Shown piece by piece: positions 39,961-64,000 of a stretch of 64,000 nucleotides of DNA. Position 1 is the first letter of the stretch; the number at the start of each line of letters is the position of its first letter. Made by a program: the position numbers and the translations under genes. The stretch lies in the NCBI GenBank assembly GCA_023627715.1, contig JAMAHW010000005.1, positions 682,001-746,000 on the forward strand, given 5' to 3'. The notes below the pieces were generated by a model. That model did not search any database. It worked only from the letters and a program-made list of their open reading frames with translations, and was not told the DNA's origin. This DNA is from Periconia sp. R9002. Lineage: Eukaryota; Ascomycota; Dothideomycetes; Pleosporales; Periconiaceae.

Positions 39961-42900
39961 CTAGAACCGCCCATACTCCACGACCTCCACCTCACTCAAA
40001 TGGCTTCTCCTGACGACACCACCTCCACCACCACCACCACCAGCACCCGTCACACCCAAGCGAACACTACCACTCCTCACACTCGCACTTGCGCTCCCCA
40101 CAACGCTCTGCCTCATCGCGACGCCGCTACTCCTCCTGCGACCATCGCTCCTATGCGGCGGAGGCACCGCAGCGTCCAACGGGTTACTTTTCGCCATCGC
40201 GTTGGCGCTGCGGAACATGTTTGCCGCGCCGTTTTTCCACGTCGAGGGCGGCGACGTGTGCTCGCCTCCTTCCGTGTGCGTCGCGTACGGGGTAGGCGAG
40301 GTGGAGTACTTGACGGGTCGTTTACCGTTAGGAGGGGCGGCGGACTGCGAGTACGTGCGCGCGGGGCGGGTAGGCATGTACTGCTGCTGCTGCGCGCCTG
40401 ATGATGAGGAGGCGTGAGGTGGTTCGTCGTAGGACCTGTTCTCCGGCGTGGTGAACGAGTTCGCGTAGTAGTGCACCGAGGAATCGGGTGTGGACGGGGC
40501 CCAGTCGAAGCTTGGTTGGAAGAGGTGGGGAGGGTATGCGGAGGAGGAGGGAGAGGCTCGCTCGTCGTCGATGTAGACGGACGAGAAGGAGGTGGTGGTT
40601 GAGTAGTGCCGCGAGACCAGCGGGGGACGTGGGTGCTGCATTTTGGCTAGCTGTGGGTCGACGAGGTTGCTCGAGGCTGTGTCGGTGGCTCCTCTTTGGG
40701 AGACCGCGGCGCGGTCTGGGTGGCGTGGGGGAGGAGGGATGATGCTGTTTCGTTGGTTGTGGGCGGTTTCGAGGCCGAGCATTTCGTAGCAAGCTTTGCC
40801 TATCCACAGCATCTGCTCGTGTTCGCGCAGGTATCGCTCACCACCGAAGGATTTTTGGACGATGTTGCGCGCCATCATGCCTAGTTTGCGGCGTTGTTCG
40901 GTCTTCTCGTACATGCGACGCGTGATGATTTCGACATCGTGGGGCGTGGGTTTGTGGGGGAGGATAGGAGCTGGTTTGTCTGCTGGGTCGTCGGCGTATT
41001 GTGCCCACTCGTCTAGCATGGCGAGGAGATTGATTTGAGCGCGCGCAAGCCCGTAGGCGTCGTTTGGCGCAACGACTTCGCTGTACCGTTTCCCGTCGTC
41101 AGGGTCTGTGAGGACTCGGAGTGAAGCACCGACGTCAGTGCAGACTACCGGGGCTCCGGTTAAGGCTGCCTCACCGAGAGCGAGGGGAAGACCTTCGGAG
41201 ACGGAAGAGTTGAGGAAGAGCCATGTGTTTGCGAGGACCATGGCCGGATCAGCTGTACCTTTCAAGGCAACACTCTGTCCTAGGCCTTTACAAGCGAGGA
41301 TCTCCTGGCACTCTGAAGAGTAAACAGGTGATTTGTTGAGAGCACCGTAGATGTCGAGTTTGTAGTCTTTGAAGCCCCACTCATTGGATATGATATCGGC
41401 AGCAAGCAATGCAGTCTTGATATCTTTGGCGAACCAGACGTGTGATAACATGGTGACTGTGGGTTGCTTCGTCTTGATTTCCGTGACGGGGGAGAATTTC
41501 TGCATGTCAGTGATGCCGTTAACAATGGGATCGACTTTGCGCTTGAACACATTGCGATGTGTAAGTTGGCCTTTGGCGCTACCGATCTCGATCTCCCAGC
41601 CAGGATTGAAGAAGTCTATACGGGTCAGCTTGTTTAGAATGAAAGGGATAAAGTCGCGTACCTGCGCATGGAAGAATCTGATCGGCATGGTGCAGAATTA
41701 AGCAAGATGTCAACTTCATCAATCCAAGTAGTGAGTTTCGGATGAAGGGTGGCAATGTGCACATGGCAGAGGAGAGATAGAGGTTGGTCTCTCGCCATGA
41801 TATGGCATGATCCCATATCTGAAGCGTGCAGTTTCGCTTGATCTTGCAAACAATTCCATAAGAAGCCGAAACGCTGTGGTGTGAAGCTTGAAAAACGTTG
41901 GGGATCTTGTCGGGTATCGGAATCGAGAAAATGAACAGATCTGTCAATGTCAGTGGTAGTTCACAAGGTCTGAGAGGTAAAGCTTACATCTGAACCACAA
42001 CTCCAAAGCAGTGTCAAGATGACTCAACGTTGGAAGCTCTGTGCGGAACCACTCCGATGGCGGTTGCGCATTGGGCATGTCATCCGCCATCCAGAGCTTT
42101 CTCCACGTATCTTTGACAATGTCGCTGGTCCAAACCTCTTTCCAATGACGAGAGTCCTGAAAGTAGGTATTCAGATTGACTAGGGCTCGTGTCGCCTGTT
42201 TGACGTCGGCTTCAGTCATATTGATGGCTCGAGCGCCGCGCACAAGTGCCGTTAAGGTAGGGATGAAGTTCATTTTGATGTCATTGATAGTAGCATCCGC
42301 AACCAGATGGTCTACCTCGCTGTCGAGCTTGTTGGTGAACATTCCATGAGAAGGGTGCATGAAGTCGAGGCCCCAGAGCGGAATGATCTTGAGTGATTCA
42401 ACATTCTCCTCAGTTTGATGTTTTGGTAGACCGAAGTCATTCGCTGATTCAACAACCATATGCCATTTAATGGTACGAAGATTGTTGATCAGATCACGAC
42501 GACAAGCCGACACACCACCACCCTCGTTTGGCCATGTCCCCGTATCGACAGCAATCACATGTAGATTATTCTCCGTATCGCGCTGTAAAGTCTTAGTCCT
42601 GGTGAAAATGACAGCATCACCACCCTGACCGAAGCTAAAGAGATCACTCATGCGAATTGCGAGGGGAGTCCAAGCGCTGATGTCGCTGGTCAAATCTGAA
42701 CTCGCCATGATTGCATCAGCATGCAAAGCTAGATAGTCTTCAGCCTTGAGTAGGCTACCGCGGTCCCGACGACGCCAATAGGGTTTCAAAAGAGTTTCTT
42801 TGCGGATAAGTTCTTCGTCGACGAAGCGGACAAGTACTCCATCAAGATCGAGACGTTTCTTCCATGCCTTCCATAATTGAGATCTAGCTCGGGAAGTTGA

Positions 42901-45900
42901 GATTTCTTGCCGCTTGATGTTGGTACCAAATACGCGCATGAAGAAGGTCGGGGTAGGTGCGGCGAAATCTAAAAGCGGGTTCTCGTCCATGAACGTACAA
43001 TGGGTCGGCTTTTTGAGAACACCAAGCCAATCATATCGGATCATATCCGGTGTATCGACAGTGTCACCATTAAGCTTGGTGGAGATGACCGGATGAAACT
43101 TATGATCGTAGAGCCAATTGCACTCATAAACATCAGCGCCTTGAACAAATGTCGCTTCGTGAACGCGAGGAGTCGGAATCCATCGTTCCATCTTCTCAGC
43201 GTGACGAACCGGAGGGGCACACCAGCTGACGTTGACAGACATATGTGGAAGTACAAACTCCGCTCTTAGAAGCTCATCGTCGTATTTAGCGTTTTTGCGA
43301 TAGTGATATTTGAAGCGAACCAAGTTCCCGTCCTGAACGTAGCTCCCAGACTCAATATGGCCTTTGTAATTGTACTGAACTTTGGCCCCAGAATCATTGC
43401 CAGATATGCAGCTCCGACTGATTGGGAGCTTGGAGTTTTGGAACTTCATGATTTTGCCAAATTTCGTAGCCCTCTTATTGGGATACTCGTAGGTAAACTC
43501 GTTGACGACATTGTTGTTCTTGTACTCTTTGCGGGAAATGATTTGCATGTTCCGGCCATACTCCGATACCCTAACGTGCCCCCAAGTGGGCTCCTGCTTC
43601 AGAACTCCTGTATAAAAGACCAGCTTGAATCTCTCGTTGGATATGCGATGAACGAAAGCAGTTTCGGTCTCTCCGTAGCTGCGGATAATGAGTCGGTCTT
43701 TTTTCTGGGATATAAGACTGCCTTTTACAGTGGATGCGAGAGCTGCAATATCTTTGCGATTATGGTAAAGGAAGAAGGGAAGCGCTCGAGACATGGCAGC
43801 GTGGCTGTATATCCAAAGTCCGGTAAGAATAAAAGTCACAGGCTTCGCAACGAAGAGTGGCGTCCTACCCAAGGCGCATTTCAGTTCTCGCTGATATTCA
43901 AGATCGGCCATGCACGCTAGTACAAAGAATTTGATCCATTGACCAAGGGTATGGTAAGCGTAGATGACTGGTGTTGTAACCGTCTTGTACACCCTGACTA
44001 ACACCGATGTAGCAGAGCGATTGAGGACTGGGTGGTGAGCTTCTTGAATATCAGCGGTAACTTGCCGATAATCTTTCTCGCTGAGCTGGCGCCCGCCACG
44101 AGATTTGAAGTAATTGTACTTGCTCACCGCCAGATATGCACCTAAATCGTATCTTGCGATTCGCGAAAGGATTGTACATGAATCTTCAGCTGCAACGTGT
44201 TTGTTTATCCAGGCCATCTCGGTATTCGTGTACGGTCCTCGAGCACCCATGCACCGCCTGAGGAACATGCGACGAATCTCGAGTGACAAATTATCCCAAT
44301 CTTTGTCGCAATCGTATCCAAAACATAGGTGGCGCAATATCTCTTTTCGACACTGGGTTTCGAACGCAGCAGCTTTAGGACCGGTCGATTCGGATGGCAT
44401 TGTACGTTTAGCGCATTCAGACACAACGTACGCGTCAGATAGTATTGAACGACAAGCTAAAATAGATTCGGTGATCTCAGCTTGATGGCGAGGCATGCCA
44501 AACATGGTTCCCGTACAAGCATGCAACAATGTCTCCGCTATAGATTGTGAGTTGCTGCTGATGTTGACCTGAGTCCCGACGGAACCCTTAAAATCCGAAG
44601 CGACGTATAGTGTCAAGTGGCCGTTTGAATAATGAGAAATGGCACGAAGCGAACTGTCATCTGTAACAGACTGCATAGGAACAATGAAGACTTTGACCAG
44701 TCCATTTTGCCAAGCGAGAACAATTCTTTGTACCAGGAACGGCATTGCTGGGTAAGCTTGCAATGCCAGTCTCGAAAGGGAGTCATGTGTACACGAAAGG
44801 AGGTTGGCGGTGATCTGGTCTCCTGGGCTACCAAACGGTAATACTCGGAAACGATTCTCTTTGGGGGCCGATCGTAGTTTTTCGGTGAAGGCCTGCAGTT
44901 CGCTTTGGCTCCAATCTGCTTCTGGCCCAGCTCCCTTATACGCGTGAAACTCCTCTTTGATCGACCAGTGGATGTGATATTGGCTGGGAAGTCCTCGAAT
45001 GTGTACAGAATCCGTTGAATGATCAGGCAATTTGGGCTTTTTGTAGCTTTCAATCTTCTCGAAGAACCACATGCGGATATCGAACGCTTCAGGTAAACCG
45101 AGCTTGGCTGTACGGAAAGATAGCAGGGCTGCAGCCCAAGTGCCGGCTGCCAATGAAATTACATTGTTGTACTGAAAACTTGTTTGCACCTTGTGAAGGA
45201 TGTTTCCGAGCACGAATCCAAGGATCACTGCTATAAGTAGTGGCATCAAAGCATGCGGCCCGGAGAATATCTTGTTGTACTGGTAAAGCAAGAGTCCACT
45301 ATAAGCCCCAACATACGCAAGGAACATGATCATGCCGTTCGACGAGCCATTGAAAATCCAAACGAGTGCCGTGCTTAAAGATAATGCCCATACATGCACG
45401 CCAACGAAGCGGCGAAGGGTGGTCCAGTATAAACGCCGTCGGAATTTCTGGTCATTTGCTTTTGCTGTCTTGATATGAGCGGCATTCTCAATGGATACGG
45501 GAGCCATTTGCTCGGAAAGTTGGTGTAAGTGCTGTGCCTTATAATCGAGAAGCACAGCTCCGATGAGATAGTAGGCCAGGCCAAATCCAACGGACAATCT
45601 CAACACTTTATTGTATTCCGTAATGGCTTCCTCCGTCAGTGCAGCGCCGAGGAGAGTGGCACTCGACTGTATTGACAAACCAACGAGGCGCCCACCATGG
45701 ACAAGATCAAGCCATCGGTCCATCAACGCTACGAGGAAGTACAAGATACCGCAGCCGATTTCGTCTCCGGCATTGCGCCAATGAATGAAAGAATTGTGTA
45801 ACCGAATGCCTTTCTGAGACTGTTGCATGCTTTCAAGGGCAACTTGTGTTTCTAAGTTCCAGGTAGAACTGAACGGAATCGGTCGTTTTGTGTCAGTGAT

Positions 45901-48900
45901 GCGGCAATACCAGTCCAATAAGAAAAGAGTAGAGTCCCAACATGATGCTAGAGTTTTCACAAAAGTATCAGTTGTGGGCTTTCTCCAGAATTGACGATTC
46001 CTCTCCTTCATGACCGCATCATAAAGCTTTGTTCGGCAGAGGGCGAGTATCGCAGGCTCGCTAAGTCCGTAGAACAATTCTTCTTCCGGAGTAAGTTCAG
46101 TCGATGGAGTGATAGAAGATGATGCGGCCGGCGAAAGTTTTTTTTCCTTGTCCTGATGTTTATCTGTAAGTCGTTAATACCGTGACTGGAGAGAAAGAAA
46201 CGTCTACACTCGCCTTCCATCTCTGAGGCTGACCCTCGCTTGGCATATTTTTTTATGTACCATTCTTTTACGTCTTTATCATTCAACGTCTTGATACTGT
46301 GGTACCACGTCACCCATTGAGTGGCAACGCGTCGAGTTCCCAAAATCAATAGGGATACGAAAACAAACAGAATGCATGGATATATGATGATGTCGTAGTC
46401 GTCAACCCATATGGTGATGATTGGTGAGATGATGAGGGTGGGAATAATGGCGATGATAACTTTTCGGCCGTTTAGAAAGGAAGACCCGGGTATCTGATAT
46501 GTAGAAAGAACTGCAAGTACTGAAAGATACGAAGTTAGAAGTAGTAGATAGAAAAAGTAAACGGCGGCTGGCTTGACACCAACAACGACTGCAATGACGA
46601 CAAAACCAACAAGGCTGGCAGCTAGGGTAAATGCAAGGCCGCCGATCAGACGAGTGAGAACAAACATGTTTGCAGCTGAGAATGCCATCGATATAAGGTA
46701 GTAGGTACCCCCAATTGAAATCCAGGTACCGATCGCCCCGGAAAGGAGGAGAGAGGTCATCAATGCTAACGTTGCATACTTTTGCTCTTCAAATGTCATC
46801 GCGACACTAAGATAGAGACCATGTCCGGTTGTTGACAGGAGTAAAATATCTGTAGATATGAGCAAAACGAGCCACTATCAACAAGTTGGTTGGGTTTGAC
46901 TTACCCACAAGCGCTGGAATCGCGAAAACGCTAAGAAACGTAAAGCGACGATATCCAGGCATCACCGAGGCCTTTTGGTTTGGGTCAATGTCGGTCTGTG
47001 CGGCGGCATAGGCAGACGCAAAGGAGGGTGCGTTGAATATCCACATTGGAGGTTGATGGTCCTGTTCATTATAGTAACTTCGATGTTTTTTGGACAGAAG
47101 TACTCCAATATCACTCGGTCGGATGTCGAAGTAAGCCTCACAACGAGACCCCAATGCAAATAGCTCTGCAAATGCAGCACTCTGGTCTGAGTATTGATTG
47201 AAAAGCGGGTTGCGATCCGATACTTCAACGTAGACTTCTTCAAATGCAGCTTTGCGTGCAGCACAAAAGATACAGAATAGAACAAAGTTAGAGACTGAAT
47301 CGATTCTCTGGCGGCTTGTGAGCTTTTCTATCGCTGAAGTGATGACATCCAGGCTTCTATGATCACGCCACCAGAGAATATTGCGGAAGCTGAGGTCGAC
47401 ATGCCTGAAGAGTGCCACAGCATCATGTCTCTCAAGACAAGGAAGATGGCATAGTCGGTACCATTTGATCCACGCGTTGACCAAATTCTCATCTATTATA
47501 TCCTCGCTTAGATAGTCCAGGTTGGCTTGTCTCTTCAATTGTCGATATGTTGGCACATCGATGAGAAGTTCCTCACATTGAGTCCGAATTGTGGTGAGTA
47601 AGGGACACTTTTCATCCCATTTGGTATGCTGGAGATGCTGAAGATAAAGGACCAAGTCCGAAGATGACAGCAGCTCAAGATCTTGGTCCATTCTTGAGGG
47701 CAACCGTTCCAGCGGTTCGAATTTGTTCAGATGCTCGTTTAAGTTATATTCAAGGAGGAAACATTGATATCTGCTGAACCCAGCTTTGCTGAGATAGGTG
47801 TGAAGTAGGGTAGATGGTAGGTCTTGGGCAGATTTGGACAGATAAATGATGAGTGACGATGTTCTCTGGTCGACTTCCCAAACAGACCAGTACTGACTGC
47901 CGCTGGGGGTATGAAAGCCAGAATCAATACCAGTATAAACACGTACTGGACGATAATCTTCGTCTTCTTCATTGGTTGCTAGGAGTGCATCCGCGAAAGC
48001 TGTCACTGCCTCGCGAGAGTCGGAGATAGTTTCCAATAGAGAAGACTCTGACCGACTGTAGGTGTAGAGTATGTCTCCTATCGCATGAAGCTCCTTTATG
48101 GTGACCTTACTTAAAAGGTTCAAGTGTCGCAATCGCGCTTGTGATTTTAGAACGTGCTCGAAATCTTCCTGGGTTGCGTTTAACCCGATTGGAAAGCATC
48201 CTAGAGAGCCGTAGCGGGTACCATCAGTGGAACATGAAAGTGGGTTAGAGTCATGTTTATCCACAACTGAGCTCCAATTGAAACCTGGCGAAAATGGCGA
48301 GATTGGCTCTGAAGTCAATAATGCGCCATTCTCATCGATGTCCGGGTACTGAACCGTGAGAGTGGAGCAGCTCGAATTCTCATCCGGCTCCGAGTCAGAG
48401 CTATCTAGGCCCGAAATGGTGCTTTGAAGAAGTGGAAACACTTCTTGTAGGGGAAGGTAATCGTCGATTATACTCGAGAATTCAGGAGCCAACTGATAGT
48501 ATCGTCAGTCAATGTTCCCAGCAGTGTGATATATACTTACGATGCGGGTAGTCCTAAATTTTTCATGAACATTCATGACTCTTCGGTCTTTCAACCACTG
48601 GAACGCGGCTAGTGGCTCCTCACACGAACGAATCTCCGCCATATCAGTCAAAGCGCATTGTCGCACAAAATATGGTAGTGCGCCATGGTAGCTGCACCAC
48701 ATATGGGCTCTGCGTGTTACAGCATGAGATAACTCGGCCTCATCTGCAATGGTATCCCACATCATTGTTATGAACGGTCGAAGGCATGCTTGTGAGACGA
48801 AAGCTTTCGTCGTCGTCTTCATCTTGTCCATTGCGAAAAAGTCTCTTCTCTCTCCATTGCGCATGATAGTCCCATTCCTCACCACAATGCCTGCTAAGTG

Positions 48901-49669
48901 ATTGAAATTGAGGTTCTCAACCTCGTGCAAGTAGTTGGGCGGGTCGACCTCCAAAAACACTCCCAACCCATGAGCGGTGAAAAGTTTGGCAAGCCCGTTC
49001 AACAATGCCATGGACACATATTGCTCCCACCCGGCTATGAGGATACCTGTAAAGTACCTTTTCTGGTCCGGTTGTCTTAGAGATTCTTCAAGGATATTAG
49101 AGACGACGTAAACCGCTCGATACTTGTCCAATTCGTTTTCCGTGGCTTTTGCAGGAAGTATTTGTGACAGATCCAGTCGAGCAATAATGTGAGGTCCGAT
49201 AACAACATTGGTGTCGTTGATCGCTTCAAGCACTCCTGACTTACGATAGTCTAAAACTACAGCGGTCCATCCTGCAAGCACTTCTCTTTCTTCATCTGTG
49301 GGTGGAGAACTCAGTGAGCCAAGGAAAACCCCAAAGGAAGATGGTTTCTCGGGAAGGGGCTCGGTTGGTCGAATACGTTTAGCACTGCGCGTTAACACGT
49401 ATATGAATTCCTGGATGGAACGAGATAAGCCATCACCCTCCGTTCGAGTCTAAACAAAAACCAAGTAAGCTTTCAAGTGCGAAATCACATGGAGGTTTTC
49501 ATATGATTCTTACTTTGAACCAGTTGCGGAATGAGTTGTAGGATATCCAGATAAAAGCAATGATTCCCATTGACCCACTCGCACAAATTATGGCTACGAG
49601 TGTGTATTCCCACCATGTCTCAAGAACTGTGCCTGAGCTAAAGGCTTGAATACCTAGGATATTCGCCAT
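39961..49669 (-). CDS. gtb3: Galactosaminogalactan synthase-like giant multipass GT4 glycosyltransferase
   Basis: Seven minus-strand exons (49669-49514, 49449-48541, 48492-46905, 46849-46208, 46163-41988, 41940-41662, 41615-39961) give about 3,134 residues; introns are 44-64 nt. Only the fourth intron (GTAGAC..TTACAG) has a weak donor. Residues 23-43 form a membrane span. Two membrane clusters lie near 870-1075 and 1190-1420. The GT4 domain with a PelF-like (DUF3492) N-terminus begins near 2299 (VDTGTWPNEGGGVSACRRDL), includes DHAISWRE and NPGWEIEIG, and has the E-x7-E donor motif SEGLPLALGEA near 2720. The tail (2,880 on) is Ser/Pro-rich with a Gly run. The family polymerises and probably exports Gal/GalNAc chains through the plasma membrane. 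Divergent from agd3, as expected for this locus. Confidence 0.88.
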
Positions 49670-50483
49670 CTCCCAGAGAGAGGCACCCTGAGGCGGGCGT
49701 AGGTGGAAATAAACAGAAGAATTGTGTGCAAGATGGCTTGGCCCAGGCTTTTGGCGGAGGGGACCGCTGTAATAGCGAAAGGGTTATTGGGCAGAACAAA
49801 AAAGCGAGCCAGTGGGAAAGAGTAAGCAGCAATGTTTCATGCTGAGCACCTTCCAGCAGTCTGCATCCACTGATTTGGGGAGGGAAAAAGAAGACGGGGA
49901 AATAATTTCCACTATAAAGGAACCGTGTCACTACGGCAGCTGAATGCCGACACGGTAGTAGCTAAGGGACAAACCGGGAGGATTCAAGCAGACAGGCTGC
50001 GTATGAGACCATCATGTGCGTGGTAAAGATGTTCGATGATCCATCAAGATTAGAATAGTACACATCGCTGGCAAATTACACAACAGCCAGCAGGGAATGA
50101 AGCAGCACGAAGCAGGGACCGACGGCAATGGAAGCATTGATGTGCTTCGAGAAACGTGCAAGAGATGGCTTGGCATCCGCAAGAGGCAGGGAGAAGCAGC
50201 GACTGGGAGTGCGTAATGGAGGGAAGAGCCTTTGGACCGGACGTCGGCAGGGCCTATCCCAGCGGAGCTTATGTGGCCAAGAATCCGGGTGCAGGCTACA
50301 GCAATCTATCTTCGACGACATGTTGAAAGTCAGCAAGAGAGGACGAGGTGCTACGATTCTGGAGGGGGATGCAGTGCGGTGTGGTTTCGAGGAGAGCTGC
50401 TAGTGGTGAATGAGACGACGTCAAGCAGAGGCTGAAAGCCGTGGCAGGGTTCGCGACTTAGCACACACTGGGTTAGCGCGCGG

Positions 50484-50495
50484 ACCGTGCACGGT
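50484..50495. promoter_or_regulatory. Perfect 12-bp palindrome ACCGTGCACGGT
   Basis: ACCGTGCACGGT equals its own reverse complement. It contains an everted CCG-N4-CGG pair and, with the upstream CGG, a CGG-N8-CGG direct pair. Such triplets are typical of Zn2Cys6 factor sites. It lies about midway between gtb3 and agd3. Binding is inference. Confidence 0.45.
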
Positions 50496-50512
50496 GCTGG
50501 TTTAAACCGGCA
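50495..50512. promoter_or_regulatory. 18-bp near-palindrome around GGTTTAAACC
   Basis: TGCTGGTTTAAACCGGCA has a perfect 10-bp core (GGTTTAAACC) and one mismatched pair over 18 bp. It abuts the ACCGTGCACGGT palindrome, sharing its last base. A candidate binding site of a dimeric regulator. Confidence 0.4.
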
Positions 50513-50960
50513 TCGCCCTTTAGCCTAACCTACCCTCCTCCACTTTCATGCCGTTAATATCGATTTACATGCATTCTGCAGCATCTTTCCCGTATAGCAT
50601 CCTGTACAGCAAGCACAGCGACCCGTACCCAGATGAAGTCCGGGGGCCATAGATGAGCTTGCGTGGAAGCTGGCCTGAACTCTCCAGCCGGTCTGAGGAC
50701 GCGTCGGCCTCAATATCTTTCTCCAGATCCACATCAGACTACCGTTGAAAAACACCAAGGTCATGAGATGTTCGGCTGTACTTCCCTAGCTTCCAGTTCG
50801 TAACAGCATTGTATGTTCTGTCGATTTGGGTCCGTTGGCCAGTGTCACGTTGCTCTGGCCCAGATGGCGAGCGTAACAACGGTACAGACATCTCAAAGTG
50901 AGATCACTTTACGATAATCTTCAAGTCAAATTTCCCTTCCTAGATCCTACTCAGACACTG

Positions 50961-50972
50961 GCCACGCGTGGC
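50961..50972. promoter_or_regulatory. Perfect 12-bp palindrome with ACGCGT core
   Basis: GCCACGCGTGGC is fully self-complementary and centres on ACGCGT, a core bound by APSES/MBF-type factors. It sits about 400 bp before the agd3 start. StuA, an APSES protein, is a known regulator of galactosaminogalactan genes in Aspergillus. The flanking bases do not fit the full published StuA consensus, so the link is tentative. Confidence 0.35.
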
Positions 50973-51373
50973 GCAAGCACCCTGCCTTCCCCACCGGCTC
51001 TTCGTCACCTACATAGTAGGTTCGCCAAGTACCCTGTCCCCTCCCCCATTGTCACATCACGTTCTTTTATACGCCAACCCCAAAAGTGAATGTAGCTCCT
51101 ACGTTACAGCGTACACCTCCAGACTCGTAGCAGTCGTCTTCGTTTCCGCCGCGTCATAGTTGTTACCCCATTCCGTTTTCGGCACCTTGCCACCTGCTTC
51201 CTGAGCCCTCGAATCGATAGTCTTGCGTCTATACGCTCCTTATGCACTTACATTTTTCCATTGCCCAATCGTGAAAGTCAAAATTTCTGCCCAGACCCAA
51301 TCCTATTAAAACGTTCTGGACCCCGAAACTTTTACATCTACATGTAGTTGCTTTTCGTCGCTACTCACTCATA

Positions 51374-53764
51374 ATGCCACGGTCCATATTCTCATGGCTG
51401 CGAGCGTGCTCCGTCACAGCACTCGTGGCCTTCTCTCCAAAAGTATTCGCCGAAGAAATATCTGCTGTTGGCGGTGTTTCCGTCTCAAGCACAATCCTCG
51501 TTATTGCACGAGACCAAACAGCTGCTCAGAATGGCGCAACCTCCGGTCTCCAAGGCTATGGGATACCGTTTGAAGTGTTGACAGTTCCCCAGGCTGGCAT
51601 CTCAAGCTTACCCAATCTCAACGCATCCGCAACTAACGGCAATTATGGAGGTATTGTCATCATCAGCGAAGTCGGCTACAATTATGACACCCAGTACTAC
51701 AGTGCTCTCACACGAGTGCAATGGAATCAGCTCTACAACTACCAGATACAGTTCGGCGTGCGAATGGTTCGTTTGGATGTGTTCCCAACCACGGATTTTG
51801 GTACCGTGAGCATCGGGGGTTCAGCAGCGGACGAACCTGTTGTCCTCACCAACGTGACAGGCTTCTCTACTGCCGGTCTGAAAACGTATGTCTACAATGA
51901 TTTCATCTTTGATTTTGATTCTATTTTTGGAATTCTTGTTTTTGAAATTTTTCTTCTTCATAATTTTCCTGCTCTGCAGACATTTACCCAATTAATATAA
52001 GTGCATACACGAGTGACTGACGGTCTTGGCAGGGGACAGAACGTCAGCATCGCGAGCATCTGGCACAACCCAGCGCAAATCACAAATACTTCAATTGCGT
52101 GGGAAGTTGCCAAATTCAATGGCGTAGGAACCGCTGCTGTCATCAACAAGATTGGAGATCGTCAACAAATGGTATGGTTCTTACCCTTCGCACTGGACTG
52201 GGCACCAAGCTCGAACTATCTGCAACACGCGTGGATCAACTGGGTTACACGGGGGTTATATGTTGGGTTTAGACGTCTTTATTTTGGCACACAAGTTGAT
52301 GATATGTTTCTGCAAACTCCTTTGTATCGCCCTGAAGGACAGACATACCGATGTAAACCAGATGATCTGGATCTGCATGTGTCTTGGCAAAAGACAATCA
52401 ACTCGAAGATGCCCAAAGGGTCCGAATATTTCATTGAGATTGGTCACAACGGTAATGGTGCTATCGAGGCGGCAACGGATACCACTGAAGGAGCGAGAGT
52501 TTGCTCGCCGAATACGGGAATCGAGTACCCTGACCAGATTGATGGACCTCCAGATTATACCAAGCCTCCAGGAACAGGCGTCGATATTTGGCCAACTACT
52601 CCAACCAAGTACGACTGGAGCCTCCAGTGCAATGAAGTGGACGAACTGCAAAACTGGTTCGCAGATGAAACCAATCGCGACGCGTTTGCGCATATCTCCC
52701 ACACATTGTAAGTAGCGCAAAACTGGGGTGTCAGCACCATCTAACTTAGGTATAGCACTCATGAGGATCTTACCAACGCCACATACTCTGATACTCTTAA
52801 AGAGATCACTTTCAACCAGGCCTGGCTGAAACAAAATGGCTTGGACGCGGCAAAGCGGTTCAGTCCTAATGGCATTATCCCACCGGCTATCACAGGTCTC
52901 CACAATGCTGATGCCCTTAAGGCTTGGAAAGACGGTGGCATCGTGAATGTCGTGGGTGACAATACACGCCCCCTACTTTTGAACACCCAAAACCGCTTCT
53001 GGCCGCTTAATACCACCGTCGCCGGGAATGGGTTCGCTGGCATCAATGTCATGCCGCGATGGGCAACAGTCATCTACTATAACTGTGATCTTCCAGCATG
53101 CACTCTTCAGGAGTGGATTGATACCTCTGGTGGAAAGGGAACCATTGATGATCTTCTGGCAAACGCCCGAGATACCGCAGTCAGGAATCTCATGGGTCTT
53201 CACTGGGACGAGTGAGTTGTCGCTCTACTCTGCATTTGACACCTGTGTTAACAATTCAACAGTTATATGTTCCATCAAGCTAATCTACGCGTGAACGACG
53301 TCCCACAAACTACTGTCAATGGCAAGAAAGGTCAATACTCTCTGCTCATGACCTGGGTAGAAGTTGTTACCGCCGAAATCATTAGACTGTAATAGCGCCC
53401 TTTCCTTCCCCTTCTAAGAACTTTTGAAGTCCTAGTCTAACAAATCAACAGCACCACTTGGCCTTTCAAGACTCTCAAACACGACGATCTCGCAACACAA
53501 TTCCTGAACCGCCAGACACGTGATCTCTGCCGACCTAGCATGACGTGGCAAACCACTGCTGATGGTAAAGGCATACAAAGCGTCACCGTCTACACTGCCA
53601 AAAGCAACAAGTGCGATACCAACATTCCCATCACATTGCCCGTCACCCCAACTTCTACCACTGGCGCTACCAAGGAGCAGATTGGTACTGATCCGCTTAC
53701 TCTCTGGGTTACTATGAGTGGCAAAGCACAGACGTACTCGTTCAGCAAGGCCCTTCCTTTGTAG
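51374..53764 (+). CDS. agd3: Secreted galactosaminogalactan deacetylase (CE18 family)
   Basis: Five exons, 51374-51885, 52033-52707, 52750-53211, 53263-53388 and 53452-53764, give 695 residues. Introns are 147, 42, 51, 63 nt. The junctions read AGLK-T-GQNVSIAS, ISHT-L-YSTHEDL, LHWD-D-YMFHQANL (split codon) and EIIR-L-TTWPFKT. Residues 1-26 are a signal peptide (VTALVAFSPKVFA). The N-terminal half is a beta-rich domain. The deacetylase core has metal-binding D260-D261 in GTQVDDMF and H391/H394 in HISHT, then HED at 400-402. Several NxT/S sites suggest N-glycosylation. In Aspergillus this enzyme partly deacetylates GalNAc outside the cell, giving the polymer positive charge and adhesion. Divergent neighbour gtb3 supports the assignment. 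Confidence 0.9.
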
Positions 53765-56616
53765 ATACATATACGCATGTACAAATTAGTGGATGTTACC
53801 CTCGCCTCGGTATGTGTGGTGCTTCCGCCAAGACGAAGGTTGTGGATGAACCGCATGCAGGAAGGGACGTGTTCCCCAAATAGTAATGCCCGATGGTGTG
53901 GTTCATCCTCTCGTTTCCAAGCATTGTTTTACGGTTCCCAAAAAAACGGCACTGAATATGTCTAGTTCTCATTGCTCAATTATCTATGCACATGTCTTAG
54001 TTCGAGTGTTGTCCGGAAGCACCGGCCATCTCTCTCTCCTGTATGTAACTGGTTTCCTTCGTTAGATCAATTTCCAAGTGTAAACATTGCTACCTCGATT
54101 GCAAAAACCGCTCAGTGCGAGTTAACCCCTCCCTATGCATCCGCTAAGCCAATTTTCAATACTCTAAAATCTCACAAAACACTGAATCCAAGCGTTGCCC
54201 GGGAACTAGACGCTCGCAGCTGCATCATCGTCAGAAGAAATACAAACAAAAAACGACATTTCGTGTGTAAATCACAAAACATCCAGGCACGTAAAGTGGG
54301 AGACTGCATGAAAGATCTTAATCCTTGCCTAAAAAACCACCCCAAGTCATCATCTATACCCGGAACCCCGAAAAAATTCCAGTTCCAATAAGCCACCTAA
54401 ACACTTGTACACTCATACATTCAAACAAGACCATACGCGCACCTCCCTACACCATGTACAATATGCACCATCATCGCCACGTACATAACGTGATCGTTTT
54501 TTTTCTAGCTTCCAGCACAGCACAGCCCCCCAGTTGAAATGCCCTCACCCACATCGGTCTCGGCCCGAGCCACAATTTATCCACTCGGACCAAGGCCTTC
54601 CCTGCTCTTCCGCGTCGTTGATCTGGATATCCAATGACGAGTGAACGTGCTGTGAACGCTGCATGTTGTGTGTTGCTTTACTTTGCTCGCTTGGGATGCC
54701 GAATTCTGGCTTCACTGCCACCACTGCTTTTGGTTTGGGAATTTGTTTAGATGTTTTGATCTTATGGTGTTACTCTAAGAAGACTTGAAGTTGTTACGTG
54801 GCTGATGGGGAAATTTTTTGAGCATTTTCCCGATCACAATCCACTTTGTATCCATAGGGGAGAAAAAGCGCTTTCGTGATTACCAGCAAACGACGCTATC
54901 GTTTTCGAAGAAGACTATGTACGTGCAAGGCTAAGGCTCTAGAAGACGGAAAGGCATGCACATCACATCACCGAAAGAGGAAAGCAAAATACTCACACAC
55001 TATTAGAATCTTGCATAACTTCCAAGTATCCAACACGAGAAACAGCTTCTTGGAACCTCTTGGTGGCATTAGCATCTTTGCAAAACCCGGGTGACAACCT
55101 GCGATCTAACGCAACGACTGCGTTATGTATTGGCACGCTGGAAGCATACGTACTAATGCGGGCAGCTATGTATGTATGCACTGCTTCAAACCTCTTTACC
55201 TTCTTCTCTCGTGTTGTTCTTGAGGCTTTTTTCTTTCTTTCTGCAATAGATGCGTGCATGCATGGAGTTCGTTGTCGTGTTAGCCTCCATCGATCTTCCT
55301 GTTGACTCCGTATTCGATCCAGAAAAGCCACTTTTTCTCGTGTCTACCCGAGGAGACGCATGGAAAATGCATGATCCATTCCTTCCAGATCTTCCTTTTC
55401 CACGCTCCGTTCCGTGTCTAAAGCATCCAGACATCCACACACCAGGCGGAAGAAGAGAAAAAAGCCCTCACGTCTTCCCTTTTCTGTCCTAGGACGTTAC
55501 TATTTAGCCCGTAAACAACGTGTTTGCCATGTTTCACGACATGTCCATATAAAAGAACATCCTTGTATACATACACCTACACCTACCCACTACACGCTCG
55601 TAAACGCACATACACGCAGGCCACTACCTCCAACTCCGCAACCAGCGCGTACGCACACTTTTCCAATACATCTTCCCCCCCTCCCAAGAAGAAATCAAAA
55701 ATCAAACAATACATCTCCATAATCACATCATCCTCTTCACCATCCCCTCCCCCCTCGCTTAGAGAAAAAAAAAACGCCCCAATCCCCATAGCGCGATCCC
55801 CGCATTCGTATCTGCAATGCACTTCGCCCAAGGTTAAAGGAGGGGGGGAGGCGTCCGGGGATCCCCTCGCGAGCGCGCCACATCTCGATATTACCCACAT
55901 ACCACGCTAAACCCGATCCAACCTCCACAGCAATCTGGAATATATTGCAATTGCATATTTTTTCTCGTGGTGTGCATGTATGTACTTTTTTCTCTTTTCA
56001 TTTGGTAAGTTCCGAGCGGCGCCCCACATGTATGTACACGCATGGATGTACAGGAAATAAGAAGAAGCACCCCACACGCGCGGAATACGAGAGGCAGTTG
56101 CAGGGGAGGGGTGTGCATTCCTGGGTATAATGCAATTTGGACGTTTGGTTAGGTGATGGAGGTGGGATGTTTTTACGTAAAATGCGGTGTTTGGGGTGAG
56201 TGGGATGGGGACAGGTGGGTTTGTTAGGTAGCTGGGAGAGAAGAGGAATGGGAAAGAAGGGTAGGTATATGGGATGTTTGAGATGGGTAGGAGATGCAAA
56301 GGAAAGATGGGAAAGAATAAACGAGTTTTGTTAGTCAGGCAAGCAGATGTAGCTAGCTACCTAGCTAACGAACTCAGCCATTGCTGGTCACGTCACGTTG
56401 CCTCCCTTCGCGGGATTCGTAGAACTGTCGTATCGTATTACTCCATTTTCTTCCCCATTGTAGTATACCATCCGCTCTTGCGATGTCGAAGGAAACGTCG
56501 CTGAAGAAAATACTTTCTTACTTGAGTTAGCTGTCTTCTCTATCACCCACAATCGCAGTAACTACATATTGAACCTCCCCCAAGAGCAAAAAAACGAAAG
56601 AAACGAAAAAATAAAA
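53765..56616. other. Intergenic region between agd3 and ega3
   Basis: About 2.8 kb without a supportable gene. Short frames occur on both strands, with C-rich plus-strand DNA at about 55430-55790 and purine-rich DNA just before ega3 (56580-56617). I looked here for sph3 and found nothing recognisable. Confidence 0.45.
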
Positions 56617-57823
56617 ATGGACACATCACCCTCCCTCAAACCGCGCGCCAAACCGCCCTGGTCCCTCCGTAAAAAGCTCTTCATCTTCATCCCCATCGCC
56701 CTCGTAGTCCTAGGCCTCGCGCTCGGTCTAGGCCTAGGCTTAACCCTCGGTCGCGCCTCCTCCTCCGACGATTCAGACGACTCAGGAATCTCATCACCAC
56801 CCCTTCCCAGCCCTACAGCACAACCTCTCTGGAGACCAGAAGTAAACTCGACCTTCCAAATCATCCTCGCCCACGCGATCCACCTCCCCAACTCCTCCAC
56901 CTCCACAACCCCAAACGTCTCCATCTACGACGTTGATCTCTTTGAAACGAGTGCCGAAACTATTGGGACGTTGCATCAGCTTGGCAAGAAGGTGCTGTGT
57001 TATTTCAGCGCGGGGAGCTATGAGCCGGGGCGGCCGGACGCGGGGGAGTTTAAGGAGGAGGATTTGGGGGCAGAGTTGGAGGAATGGCCTGGGGAGCGTT
57101 GGTTGAGGTTGGGAAGTGAGAGGGTTAGAGGCGTCATGAGGGGAAGAGTGGAGTTGGCGAGTAGGAAGGGGTGTGATGGGGTTGATCCGGATAATGTTGA
57201 TGGATTTGTGAGTATCTCCTTTTTATTGTTTATTCATGCGGTTGTGGGATTATTTGTTGGGAGAGTAAGGAGGTTGTTTTATATGTGCGTGTGTGTCTAT
57301 AACCATACGGACATGTACAATCTCTCCTTTTTTCCTACACCAAGACAAGCATCCCCGCAAAAACGTGAAAAAAACAACAACCAAAACCATCATCCCTAAT
57401 CCAAAACACCAGCAAAACAAAAACGGCCTCTCCCTAACCCCACAATCCTCGATCGACTTCCTCCACTACCTCTCGTCGCTAACCACGCCCCTCAACCTCA
57501 CCCTCGGTCTGAAAAACGCAGGCGACATCATCCCGCAAGTCCTACCCGTCGTGCACTTCTCCGTAAACGAGCAGTGCGTCGAGTACAAAGAGTGCGCTAC
57601 CTTCCGGCCCTTCATCGACGCCGGCAAGCCCGTGTTCCACATCGAGTACCCGCGGGATGCGGGGCGGAAGTTGGGGGATGATGTGAAGGGGAAATATTGT
57701 GAGGACAAGGATGCGGGAGGATTTAGTACGGTATTGAAGAAAATGGAGTTGGATGGGTGGGTGGAGTATTGTGATGGGAAGGTAGAGGTTACGGAGATGG
57801 AAGGGGAGGGTGGAGGGAGGTGA
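56617..57823 (+). CDS. ega3: Membrane-anchored GH114 endo-alpha-1,4-galactosaminidase
   Basis: Two exons, 56617-57207 and 57413-57823, give 333 residues. The 205-nt intron begins GTGAGT and ends CACCAG, joining DNVDGF to QNKNGLSLTPQ. Residues about 22-46 are a single hydrophobic span (LFIFIPIALVVLGLALGLGLG) after a basic N-terminus (PRAKPPWSLRKK), giving a type II orientation with the catalytic domain outside. A Ser/Asp linker follows. GH114 motifs are VSIYDVDLFETS, KKVLCYFSAGSYEPGRPD, and GVDPDNVDGF near residues 188-197; the C-terminal part has VNEQCVEYKEC. The family cleaves GalN-rich stretches of galactosaminogalactan and in Aspergillus is proposed to protect or process the polymer during synthesis. 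The C-to-G codon-usage flip appears in both exons. Confidence 0.9.
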
Positions 57824-60800
57824 TGGGGGAGGGGTGACGATGAAAAGGTGGTTGGACGTCTCACTCTGAGAATTTGATTTTTTTCTATTGCTTGTTGTTA
57901 AGATGCATGGGGATTAGACTATGGGTTTTCATGGCGTTGAGGTTGATACCTACTGGTATAATCGTCTCAACAAGTTTGACTTCTTCCTTCTCGCTTTTCA
58001 GGGACCCACTATCACGACGTGCAGCATGGAAATCGCGAGAGAAAGAGAGATCGAGATGTGAAGTAACGACACGCGTACACGCATCCGTACACACATCATC
58101 GAAAAAAAAAATCGTACGTGCTCCGCTCGGCGCCGAAGCAGCTCCAGAGACCGAAGTGGACCGGCGCGTATGCAGGAACAAGGTACATTTTGAAGTCGAG
58201 TTCTAGGGTGCAGCGGAGATGGGAACCAAACGGGAAGAGGTACATGGGTGCAGTGCACTTAGATGTTGTAGTTGGGACATGGGATAGTGTGGTAACGACA
58301 TAGTGTACATTGGCAGGGCTGGGTACACACGTTGGCTCAAGCATGGAAACAACTGGATCGATTTTTCCGTTGGGGAGAGCACGCAATTTTACTTTACAGT
58401 GTCAAGTTTTTGATTTCCTCTTCGCAGGTGACTAGTGAAGAGCTTTTGAGTGGAGGATTAGAGTAGAGCGGTTGGAAGGTCCGATTGTTGCGCGTAGAGC
58501 CCGTGAAGATCAACATCTACGATGGTGGATCGAGGCTCAAAAATTGATCGACAGCCACTTCCTACGAGTAATACATTGCGCAATGTGAGTTTGGGCGAAA
58601 GCTGAGAAGGTTTTTTTGGGTAGTCGATGTGCCGAAGTGACGGTGTGGACGTCCAACTTCCGCAAGCCCGTCCCTCTTACGCTGCACCATTCATACAATG
58701 CTTACCGACGCTCCTTCTTAGTTATGTAGAAGCTATTGAACATGTATGCGGACCGGTAGACGAAGCGAGTGTGGAGTGCTGAACCGAGACCAAACTTCTC
58801 AGCATGGAAAGTTACCATGTCCAAACCTTGCGTGCGTGCATCCAAGCGCTGCTCCCACAGGATGAGTGGACATACCTGGAATGTCTTGAGGTCCTTGCGA
58901 CACACCACGGTCTGGATCGCCGAATCGGGCTCCGGATCCTAGCTCCCGTAAAAGGGGCCGGGGATTAGCGATCCAGAGCGGATGAATGCGGGAAAATTCT
59001 TCGAGATCCTGAAGTGTGGCAACTTGCAGGAGGATTGACATGGGTATGAATCCGCTCTTGAAGCTGAGTGATTTTGCCTTTGGTCTTCGTTTTTCTCTAT
59101 ACAAGACGGAACTCATCGAACAGGGAGTACGCGTCCTCAATTCAATGAAGTGGAAATTCGAATATAATTTTATATAGGACGGCTTTTGAACAGGAAGAAT
59201 AGGTGTCATGTTCGCGTTACATATTGCAATCCACACGTAAAGCCGGCTGTTACATCATCACGTCTTCTCTGTCGTATACATCTCCATCATGAGATCTTGT
59301 CCTTGAGTTTTGCAGTTTGACAAGCCAATGCAGTCCAGAGGCGGACTTTGAGCGCCTCGGCACATGCACCAAGGTATTGATGTCTTTAGCGAAACACGAC
59401 TTGCCCTAAACGACATCATGTTTAAGTTCTAACCTAATCTCCGAGCTGGTTCAACACCAGGTGTTAGCCCAACACAATGCCTGGTAAAAACCCAGCTCTC
59501 ATGTGGTCAGTACGAAGTGCGCCGTTTAGCATGTATGTATGTATCCCTTTGTCCTGGGAAGAAGTATGTAGGGTTGCTAAATATAACGACTTGTTGAATA
59601 CGGGCATCAAGACTCGACATAATGAGTCGTCAAGTTTAGGAGTTCCAGAATCAAAATCCAGGCATGTAAGCTATTCTAGCTGGGCAGGCCGCATATCGTT
59701 CACGCTATAAAAGCCTTGGGATGTATGCGTTTGTGGGTCCGAGTGGTGCGTATACGAAGCAGATCCCGACTTGCTCGAAGTCGAGTAAATAAAAATGTCA
59801 CTTTGAGCCCACAGGTGTCGACATCTTGACAGTTCGTATCGGGAACCGAAGTAGTACAAATGCACGACGACGGATATATCGGCCTATGGCAGACCTGGCA
59901 CGCTGATCACGCAACTCCGGCCTGCTTATACGAGCAGTTGTTCACAATAACATCAGAAGGCAGTGACCCCACCAGTATCCTTTCAAGCCGGATGCAAGAT
60001 GCGGCATTAGCAAAACCGTCCTTTCGAAAATTTGGCACAGTTTGCTGGGGATGTCCATGCGGTGAGTGCCAATTCCAGAACGTAAAACACGATGTACAAT
60101 ATACGATTCCGAAGTCGTGGAAATTCTGTACGGTCTGCAAACACTTCGCAAGTTCTCACCTCTAAACGACCTTAGTCTGAAAAATTTGCAGCTGAAAACT
60201 TTTTCTGATGCTGGTCTTCACCGTAACAACCGCGGGAAATATTGCGGTACCACAAAATCTCATGGAAAAGACTGAGTGGATGTGTAGAATTGCGTCATGC
60301 GGCACAGTAATCCGTGTTGAGTAGAATTGATGGCTGCCCATCTCTTTGCATATAGTGATTCGCTGACAGCAGCGTGTGAGAAGATTTGTGTACATGTCGA
60401 TCAGTAGTCAGCTCAGGGGACGGCAACGGGTGGCCGAGAACTTGCGGCAGATGCTGAGTCTGCCAAGTCGGTATGGTTCAAAATGCACCGAAAATGTCGA
60501 GATCGATCACGATGGCGAAAGGTTACAGTGTGATGCCAGCGCTCAGGATACCATGACGCGGCCGGTAGTGGAAAGCCACGTCAACAAAATGAATGTGCAG
60601 TACCGAAATTTGGGTCAATTGCGGGGAAAGACTGAGGCTGTATAATGGACGTCGGTTCCGGGGGCTAAGTGACAGTGGTGAAGGGATGACCGCTGTGGGT
60701 TAAATGTCCAAGGAGACGAGGCATGGTTGAAATAGAGTGATCACGCGAATTTAGTACCGACGACATGGGCTTAGTGGCAAGGGTCTAACCACCCTCGAGG

Positions 60801-63000
60801 CACGCCTCCGCAAAAGCAGCGATAACTTTTTCATGCGGACATCGTTCGTGGTCCGCGGGGAAGATACAGGGTTAGTGAAGATCGTTGCTTATTTCACGAA
60901 CAACCATTTTTACTCGCTGACTCTGCGCGTACCTGCTGGGGAGATTTTCCCGGCGGGCTCACGGTCCGCGTGGTTTCAATACAAGAAGGATGCATACAAG
61001 TCCAGTCATCCCAGTTCGCACATTTCAACCCTAAGCTCGCCATAATACCATCTCTCTCCAGGAGAAAATGGTGTTGAAATTTTGTACTTGCTGCGATCAG
61101 CGCCTTGCAGCGCGATCTGATCTCTTGCTCAAGCCATTGCATCTTTGATAGTCAGGAACATGACGTCTAAAAACATGACGCTCGTGTCCATCGTATGATC
61201 GAACCTTCGTATAGACAGTTCTGGGCCGTAGCTGAGTCTTGACGCCCGTAAGCAATTTGTTTGCATTTTTGTTTTCACGGGCGGCATCCACAACACTGGG
61301 TGCTTCATGACTGCGCTGTACGCAGTGGACACCTCAGGATATGGCCATTCCAGCTGGCTGGATTATGCAAGCAATCAATCACCACAAAACGATCAACTTC
61401 AGTGTGGTGTAGTCTAACACCCAACTCCGAACTTGTGACTGGTGGACAAATGCTTTCCAAGGGATGTTCGGGCTCGCTCTTACCCGCATGCAAGATGAAA
61501 TGCGCGGTGGAGCTGAGGCTGGCGTCATCGTATGGGTATTGGTTTTCATGGTAAGACCTGTAAGATTGGTCTTTTGTTTGCCTCGGGCGCTCTCAATAAC
61601 AGTGTGTTGTGTAGTTTTCACAGCATAGGGCGAGAAGAAGGCCCCCACCATGTGAAGCAATTGAGCGTAGATTGATAATTTTATGGTAGCTTCCAGAGTA
61701 CTGTAGAGCAACTGCCGAGATTCAGAGAGACCCAATCCCCGGACAATAACGCCAGAGTGTTGAAGGAAATGTACCACGAGGGTCCTAAAATCAAGGTCAA
61801 CGATTTCGGCGCTGCTAAAGTCTTCACAATAGCAGAGTAGCAGCTTGAGAGAGGCTCTTCCTCTGTTTTTTGATTGAACTACATATCCTTCGATCCGAAT
61901 TTGCAGTTACGGGGGAGATGTCATGATACGAGCTCACCTCAAATTTCAAATATTTCCGGTGGAGGGTAGAGTGAGGATTCCGCTGAAAAAGTTTTTTCAT
62001 CGATTACCAATATTGCGTGGTCCCCTAGAACGTACTGGCAATTCCGCAAAGAACGAACGAAGATGCTTGAAGCACCACGTGGTGGACGCGTTGTCAACAC
62101 AACGCAAATATTACCGGATGTGTCGAAATCTTGCATACTCTGAATACAGTGCTTCCTCGACCGGAAGAAAATACCAGGGCCACTGTTCGGGTTGAAAAAT
62201 GCCGTGGACTATGTTTACGATTGCGACCCGGCCCCATCCTCACTCAGCCGCTCTTCTCTGCGGTTTGCGGCTGGAATATAGTGGGCGGCGGAAAACGCCT
62301 ACAGTTCAAAGATCGCGTCCAAAGCATCGGGAATGGATAGAGCATAAGGTGCTTGCATATCTGCATGTTGGATGTGAGGGTGTAGGCGAAGGCCTAACGG
62401 AGCGCTCCCCAAGGACAGGTGCAGCTTGTGCAGGAGGTCTGGTACGGCCTTAGCATGGCCGAGGCTCCTGCAAGTAGCATCCCGTTTTTTGAATGAGTGC
62501 ATGCCTCGAAATGACAGGGTCAAAGAGTTGGGCGGCAATAGGTGGCAGCTTTTTGCAATGTCCATGCGGCAGACTGTAAAGTTGGTTGCTGTATTCCATA
62601 ATCGATGTATGCGTTCCTAGTAGCAATCGCAAAATCTGGAGGCACCGGCAGTGAGCACAAGGCGTATGTGCAGTCGAGAGCCATGTCCTAGATATTGTAC
62701 AGGGGTCATAACCGATTGTAGGATATATTCGAAAGTGCTAGACCGACGACCAAGTTTTTGACCAAAATAAATCGGGATGAAAAGGCCGGTCTATGCCAAG
62801 AGCGGCCCAACACCCATGATATTGAAAGGTACTGGAAAAATCTTGCATCGAATATGTTCTGCCTAATTGAGAACGTGCCTGGCTATCTTACCGAAGCTTG
62901 AACGTATTTAAGTGAATTGCACCTACATCTCTTGGGGTGAACCGAGCCAAGCGCACTGATCTTTACCCATCATTCTTTGATCTTTTTGACCATTATCGTC
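57824..63000. other. Gene-poor interval between ega3 and uge3 (sph3 not recognisable)
   Basis: A 5.2-kb gap. No GH135/spherulin-4-like sequence (expected: an N-terminal membrane anchor, then a VPLYxYP-type motif) could be read in any frame. A possible coding remnant at 58702-59236 is listed separately. Other short frames show no domain character. ACACGCGTAC near 58069 contains an APSES-type ACGCGTAC site. Base composition is near the window average, so the gap is not an obvious AT-rich repeat. Confidence 0.5.
58702..59236 (-). pseudogene. Decayed coding remnant, possibly an acetyltransferase-like fragment
   Basis: Two adjoining minus-strand frames are locally protein-like. The first reads PMSILLQVATLQDLEEFSRI and GARFGDPD, then after a frame change VCRKDLKTFQVCPLILWEQ and LGLGSALHTRFVYR to a stop at 58702. 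The N-terminal pattern (VATLQDLEEFSRIH) faintly resembles the start of GNAT acetyltransferases. The needed frame change and truncated length suggest a broken gene. Family call is weak. Confidence 0.25.
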
Positions 63001-64000
63001 ATGGACTACTTTTCGCTCGAAGAGGTTGAGGCTTCCTCCCCCTCAACCTTTTCTTTGTCGACTCCAGAAACACCAGAGCTTATGCAAACTCCGGATACGC
63101 AAAAGTCAACCCTTTTCGACGACGACATTGCAGCGGATCCTCTCGATATCGCGGGAGCGAATTCCTCCTTCATCATGGTGGTCGGAGGTCTTGGGTACAT
63201 TGGCTCACACACTGTCCTCGAGCTGCTGAAAGAGAACTACAATGTCCTCATTATCGACGACCTTAGCAACTCATACGAGAGTGTGCTGCACCGCGTTCAG
63301 GCATTGGCGGCAGAGCATTTTGCAACATTGGACAATCCGATGCCTTCCCTCCAATTCAGACAGCTTGATTACCGGAGCCCCATGATGAAGACGATTCTCG
63401 CAGAGTACTCCACATACACGGCGACGCAAAAGGACGCTCCTATCCGCACTGGATCCAAGTCTGAACACAGCCCATTCTCGGCTCTGCATCGCACTGACTC
63501 GGGTATCGATATGCCTGAGGATGACGTTCCGGAAACTGTGCTCACGAGAGTCTCTCGAATCTCTGGTGTGATTCATTTCGCCGCATATAAATCCGTCGAA
63601 GAGAGCATTCGAATGCCGTTGAAATATTATAGCAACAACGTCTGCGGTCTAGTAGACTTCCTCAGCCTGCTCGAGGAGTTTGGGATTAAAAATTTTGTTT
63701 TCTCTTCATCGGCGACTGTCTACGGAGAGGGGGCCAACTGCGGTGTTCCTCTTCGTGAAGAGCTTTGCGTACACCATCACGAAACTTATAGAGACTCGAA
63801 CGGGGCGGAGCGTCACGCAATCCCGGGTGTGATGGGCTTAACTTCTCCATATGGTCGATCCAAATTCATGTGCGAAAACATCCTCGCTGATATTGCGCGA
63901 TCGGACCCATCCTGGTCCATCACAGCCTTGCGATACTTCAATCCTGTATGTCGAATCATCTGATAGCATTGGGAATACAACTAACAGGATATGATAGGTC
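63001..64000 (+). CDS. uge3: UDP-glucose 4-epimerase (cut off by the window end)
   Basis: Exon 1 is 63001-63945 (315 residues). A 52-nt intron follows (GTATGT, AACTAACAG branch region, ATGATAG at 63996-63997), and exon 2 starts at 63998, continuing YFNP-V before the window ends. ATG 63001 is preferred. NAD-binding GGLGYIGSH is at residues 62-70, the catalytic SSATVYG near 236-242 and Y284-x3-K288 in SPYGRSK. Residues 1-58 are an acidic Ser/Thr/Pro-rich extension before the Rossmann fold, and about 40 residues (TATQKDAPIRTGSKSEHSPF and onward) are inserted before the VIHFAAYKSV strand. The enzyme interconverts UDP-Glc/UDP-Gal and, in this subgroup, UDP-GlcNAc/UDP-GalNAc, supplying substrates for galactosaminogalactan. 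Location beside gtb3, agd3 and ega3 supports the uge3 assignment over a Leloir-pathway GAL10-type role. Confidence 0.85.

Follow-up and report, generated by a model that had tools for sequence, protein, structure and literature searches.

A galactosaminogalactan-type gene cluster without a linked sph3 in Periconia sp. R9002, and a predicted galactosaminidase-like barrel in its synthase

Clusters for galactosaminogalactan (GAG) were described in 28 fungal species in 2016, all but one of them Pezizomycotina, and were recognized by a glycosyltransferase, an epimerase and a deacetylase together with either a hydrolase or a spherulin-like protein (PMC4817252). The Aspergillus fumigatus cluster consists of gtb3, agd3, ega3, sph3 and uge3, and the locus numbers in that survey put sph3 between ega3 and uge3 (PMC4817252). 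GAG production by homologous clusters has been reported for Metarhizium robertsii (PMC8224951), Neurospora crassa (PMC11356417) and Verticillium dahliae (PMC13245733). Related gene sets are also described in bacteria, where operons combine an agd3 homologue, a glycosyltransferase, a membrane protein, a GH114 gene and sometimes a spherulin-4 gene; the discussion of that report includes a transfer hypothesis for these operons (PMC7229062). An analogy between GAG and Pel synthesis is likewise already in print (PMC9030451).

The window analyzed here is a 64,000-nucleotide stretch (C5:682001-746000) of the 42.9-Mb genome of Periconia sp. R9002, which is assembled in 267 contigs; DNA was also examined up to 11.8 kb past its right end. 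Homologues of gtb3 (-), agd3 (+), ega3 (+) and uge3 (+) lie side by side in it. A preliminary description had placed four GAG-pathway homologues here on these strands, and the spliced models bear this out, with Agd3, Ega3, Gtb3 and epimerase matches far beyond chance. All four genes of the described set are present; however, the window ends within uge3, and the A. fumigatus set has sph3 as a fifth gene. The proposed layout agrees with the A. fumigatus order as far as locus numbers show, where the locus number of A. fumigatus agd3 and the strands of the A. fumigatus genes are our assumption. In contrast to A. fumigatus, no sph3 is found between ega3 and uge3, Spherulin-4 genes are located on contigs C1, C20 and C61, and a second agd3 is located on C9. 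The clusters of the three non-Aspergillus fungi named above contain the same gene functions as the window locus but, according to all three papers, include a GH135/Sph gene that the window locus lacks. Three features had been overlooked in the preliminary description: the missing sph3, the second agd3 and the multidomain build of Gtb3.

A glycosyltransferase, a deacetylase, an epimerase and a hydrolase, the classes by which clusters were recognized in the 2016 survey, are all found in the locus, while the spherulin gene, which was optional there, is absent (PMC4817252). The identification as a GAG-type locus outside Aspergillus is supported, although such loci are not new, having been known since that survey. 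The locus is real and well identified, and as a cluster it is ordinary, similar gene sets being already known in many fungi. A literature search combining Periconia with galactosaminogalactan found no paper, and among the matches listed for Pleosporales genera and galactosaminogalactan none names the polymer.

Exon models were built by eye from reading frames and sequence. Introns of the four models are GT-AG, save one gtb3 intron read as GC-AG. Consensus junctions support the splicing, as does the metal-binding motif SHTFTHE, which is rejoined across an agd3 intron. All four models are open and keep their catalytic motifs. The gtb3 homologue (49669..39961, - strand) encodes a predicted GAG synthase of 3132 aa in seven exons (49669-49514, 49449-48541, 48492-46905, 46849-46214, 46163-41988, 41940-41662 and 41615-39961). 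For its fourth intron (window 46164-46213, -) the most plausible reading has a GC-AG donor, AG|GCGAGT, and the splice is uncertain by a few residues. The locus contains a glycosyltransferase of gtb3 type, the largest exon of which is single-copy in the genome. An oxygenase-like gene, recognized by eye (window 37644-39305, +), adjoins the gtb3 3' end.

A protein search with Gtb3 returned 266 proteins at E <= 0.001. Among the best 120 of these 266 matches, the closest is a Periconia macrospinosa protein (P0001) at 94% identity, many of the next-closest relatives have 58-83% identity, and relatives at 70-94% span the whole query. Many of these relatives, and most of the 70-94% set, are presumably from Pleosporales. 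The A. fumigatus protein (P0092) is 47% identical over 100% of the query.

The agd3 homologue (51374..53764, +; exons 51374-51885, 52033-52707, 52756-53211, 53263-53388 and 53452-53764) encodes a predicted secreted CBM87-CE18 deacetylase of 693 aa, with matches to PF25116 and PF25115. It aligns over nearly its whole length with solved Agd3 6nwz, the only solved chain found (E 7e-233), and the motifs SHTFTHE and HQANLR are kept in that alignment. The second agd3-like gene (C9:1-9900, minus strand, ~4000-1690) is apparently intact with introns, and HTFTHE, GDNSR and HQANMR are visible in it. No other GAG genes were seen by eye among the frames of this 9.9 kb, and the contig ends within 2 kb of the gene on one side.

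The ega3 homologue (56617..57823, +; exons 56617-57207 and 57413-57823) encodes a GH114 protein of 333 aa (PF03537) with an N-terminal hydrophobic stretch that appears by eye to be a membrane anchor. It matches solved A. fumigatus Ega3 (6ojb and 6oj1) at E ~1e-78 (1.3e-78 for 6ojb), and its GVDPDN and VNEQC catalytic stretches align to 6ojb. Further GH114 matches are present in the same genome at C4:385199, C46:164210, C54:216870 and C99:20643.

In the 5.2-kb spacer between ega3 and uge3 (57824..63000), the site of sph3 in A. fumigatus, nothing matches Spherulin-4 and no open frame exceeds 175 aa. A Pfam search of contig C5 with PF12138 (Spherulin-4) gave no match, and tblastn with two Spherulin-4 proteins from C1 gave best E values of 1.7 in the window and 7.4 in the next 11.8 kb. 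The absence of sph3 from the locus matters because sph3 is needed for GAG in A. fumigatus (PMC12054363) and MrSph is needed in M. robertsii (PMC8224951). Elsewhere in the genome, PF12138 matches six exons on C1 (two neighbouring genes), C20 and C61, which correspond to four genes.

When the four Spherulin-4 genes were compared with A. clavatus Sph3 (5c5g), the second gene of the C1 pair gave the best match (E 3.3e-59), with GIFFDETP kept. Its model shows no evident signal or anchor, and an upstream exon may exist. The first gene of the pair (C1:358001-367900, 4757-6141(+) in that piece; E 7.6e-45) has a long N-terminal tail with what appears by eye to be a membrane anchor. In this protein DH replaces the DE of GIFFDETP, and the Glu is absent in all 16 homologues found, where His, Gln, Arg or Asn takes its place; the nine named ones among them are, we assume, all Pleosporales. 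The C20 gene matched at E 3.4e-38 with an incomplete query containing a guessed junction, and the C61 gene at E 1.7e-37 with an incomplete query made of one stop-to-stop frame. The first C1 gene, C20 and C61 were set aside as sph3 in view of weaker 5c5g matches than that of the second C1 gene, the first C1 gene also being without the motif Glu. It is likely that the Sph3 step is supplied from C1, most plausibly by the second gene of the tandem pair.

Taken by homology, the genes outline a pathway in which Uge3 would provide UDP-Gal and UDP-GalNAc. The predicted cytosolic, PelF-related GT4 domain of Gtb3 would polymerize these, and the chain would exit through the membrane bundle of the same protein. 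Outside the cell Agd3 would remove acetyl groups from the chain, and Ega3 would cleave the stretches thus deacetylated. An unlinked Spherulin-4 gene, in all likelihood the second of the C1 pair, would contribute the Sph3 step. That this locus, with gtb3, agd3, ega3 and uge3 in A. fumigatus order and no sph3, makes GAG with an Sph3 step likely contributed from another contig is very probable in our assessment, although for the organism itself GAG production is a prediction from homology. The reading is supported by the gene models, the family matches, the A. fumigatus-like order, the kept catalytic motifs and the GAG made by homologous clusters elsewhere. Against it are the lack of the required sph3 in the locus and the model of the second C1 gene, which is without signal or anchor, unlike Sph3, which carries a transmembrane segment (PMC11356417).

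The absence of sph3 would also fit a four-gene cluster that makes no GAG, in which, after loss of the sph3 step, the other genes serve some different purpose or are decaying. Neither tblastn across the window and the adjoining 11.8 kb nor Pfam on contig C5 detected sph3, and the gene or its counterpart MrSph is required in A. fumigatus and M. robertsii. However, the four models are open with conserved catalytic motifs, and the Gtb3 relatives at 70-94% over the whole query (best 120 of 266 matches) speak for a gene set still in use. C1 also has an Sph3-like gene with a good match. Loss of GAG production is therefore considered unlikely, and a GAG-producing locus with its Sph3 step supplied in trans is the preferred reading.

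Gtb3 is a multidomain protein composed of an N-terminal TIM barrel, a membrane bundle and a PelF-related GT4 domain. Its topology was assessed from hydropathy and flanking charges in an alignment of 108 sequences, comprising the window protein and 107 homologues longer than 2700 aa out of the best 120. The pattern fits one N-terminal helix that enters the cell from outside and leads into a large cytosolic part spanning residues 45-872. Residues 873-1450 would hold another twelve helices, with one 36-residue stretch counted as a single helix, and the C-terminal transferase would again lie in the cytosol. The helix count is soft because V. dahliae Gtb was reported with 11 helices (PMC13245733).

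The TIM barrel is encoded by gtb3 exon 2 (48541..49449, -) and is predicted with high confidence. The fold it is predicted to have is the (beta/alpha)8 fold common to GH114, GH191 and GH166 alpha-galactosaminidases. Alpha-galactosaminidases are its best structural matches, with GH191 and PelA at the top and Ega3 lower in the ranking. Exon 3 (about 46906..48492, -) encodes a conserved domain that matched no fold, and the end of which is the start of the membrane bundle. At the sequence level, hhalign of the barrel against very small inputs (two GH114 sequences, and one each of GH114-like and Spherulin-4) gave probabilities of <=1.1%, and the Gtb3 profile matched no glycosidase in the PDB at E <= 1. 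A literature search on Gtb3 and TIM barrels found no description of a Gtb3 barrel, the barrel discussed in the available part of the source being that of Sph3 (PMC12054363).

Glu219 on strand 5 and Glu/Asp284 on strand 7 of the barrel are conserved in 108/108 sequences. No conserved acid is present in these sequences at the ends of strands 4 and 6, the sites of the acids of known enzymes, as mapped by strand order only. The catalytic residues seem altered, but with two acids kept in every sequence the barrel may still be active. The flanking charges predict that the barrel lies on the cytosolic side.

A galactosaminidase-like barrel within the synthase raises the idea that a GAG-like polymer is made here with the barrel itself having taken over the role of Sph3. 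Its best structural matches to GH191 and PelA, with Ega3 lower down, and the two acids kept throughout the alignment would agree with this. Yet the barrel is found in all 107 aligned relatives, Aspergillus species included, and A. fumigatus still needs Sph3. The predicted cytosolic position also differs from that of Sph3, which is thought to act outside, where the chain exits Gtb3 (PMC12054363), and the ends of strands 4 and 6 lack the conserved acids of the known enzymes. Such a takeover is very improbable, and an unlinked Spherulin-4 gene remains the preferred source of the Sph3 step. A different role for the barrel can be put forward tentatively, and we lean slightly against it: every fungal GAG synthase may carry a built-in, catalytically altered galactosaminidase barrel in the cytosol, beside a PelF-like polymerase. 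On this view, a fold that once cut polymer would now serve as a subunit for holding or measuring the growing GalNAc chain on its way into the channel of the synthase itself.

The C-terminal GT4 domain of Gtb3 (residues ~2272-2870; approximately 40749..42640, -, introns included) matches PF13692 above cut-off at 52.3 bits. Its best family is NCBIfam PelF (NF038011), at 71 bits compared to 42 for the next family and to a cut-off of 100; the Gtb3 homologues P0092, P0168 and P0186 are likewise below this cut-off. PF11997 scores 20.8 bits on the domain, below its 23.3 cut-off, as is also the case for P0001 and A. fumigatus P0092, whereas five of six Gtb3 homologues, selected mainly by their PF11997 label, exceed it. 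On these scores the transferase is related to bacterial PelF by sequence, and it is not filed here as PelF.

A tblastn search of 72,556 plasmids with the transferase returned three records, each with a pelF annotation, at 24-28% identity. Besides a PelF-type GT4, the three plasmid loci, two from Deinococcus and one from Kocuria, encode an Agd3-like protein, a multi-spanning protein and products annotated as endo alpha-1,4 polygalactosaminidase/GH114. In Kocuria the locus is flanked on either side by transposase genes and also encodes a Spherulin-4 protein. The Kocuria Agd3-like protein scores below both Agd3 Pfam cut-offs; that of D. ficus was compared by BLASTP and NCBIfam only. A bacterial counterpart of the GAG locus was rejected as a new claim, such operons being already described (PMC7229062). 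In the bacterial agd3/Pel operons the glycosyltransferase and the membrane protein are separate genes, whereas fungal Gtb3 has both in one chain. Regions of Gtb3 outside the transferase gave no sequence match to the compared proteins of the three plasmid loci. The multi-spanning bacterial neighbours were assigned no family by Pfam (two of three) or NCBIfam (all three). A reading of the Gtb3 membrane bundle as PelG found no support, the Gtb3 profile being without a match to these neighbours (best E 2.6).

The uge3 homologue (63001..64553, +; exons 63001-63945, 63998-64250 and 64309-64553) encodes a UDP-glucose 4-epimerase of 480 aa. The window, which ends at 64000, holds exon 1 and three bases of exon 2, and the remainder lies beyond its edge. 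PF01370 is above cut-off in exon 1. The protein matches 72 PDB sequences, with a best E of 4.4e-81 to UDP-glucose 4-epimerases and GAL10 sixth among the best 60 of 72. In this epimerase family the gate residue sets substrate size, and human GALE has Cys there; we take Cys at this position to be a mark of Uge3. The preliminary description had called the gene uge3 and not GAL10/Uge5, and a comparison of the gate residue turned up nothing against that call, as the locus epimerase has Cys and a separate GALE-like gene on C36 has Leu. The gate residue thus points tentatively to an epimerase of Uge3 rather than Uge5 type. A Leloir-pathway enzyme of Gal10/Uge5 type, beside the other three genes by chance, could draw on the strong matches to solved GAL10 and GalE proteins but is the least probable reading of all, given this Cys, the separate GALE-like gene with Leu and a position in the locus equal to that of uge3 in A. 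fumigatus.

Two more Uge3-like sequences are present on contig C124 (C124:20001-30000): an intact epimerase (4186-5532(-) in the piece), 52% identical to Uge3 and with Cys at the gate, and a degenerate-looking partial copy (989-1513(-)). Between them is a frame that by eye resembles a UDP-sugar transporter (3122-3997(+)). A RecQ-like helicase frame, such as is found near chromosome ends, was also recognized by eye at C124:10002-13592. A second GAG cluster on C124 was considered on account of the two Uge3-like sequences. No second GAG cluster was found in the genome because the gtb3 exon searched is single-copy.

As a cluster, the locus adds one Periconia-like genome to an already long list. 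The parts that deserve a second look are the unlinked sph3 and the Gtb3 barrel, of which the barrel is the only one of possible wider interest. The locus could show whether GAG can be made with sph3 unlinked from the cluster. Gtb3 has been little described, and its build, with a galactosaminidase-like barrel, some 12 bundled membrane helices and a PelF-related transferase joined in a single polypeptide, would allow the fungal GAG machinery to be compared with the bacterial Pel machinery one component at a time.
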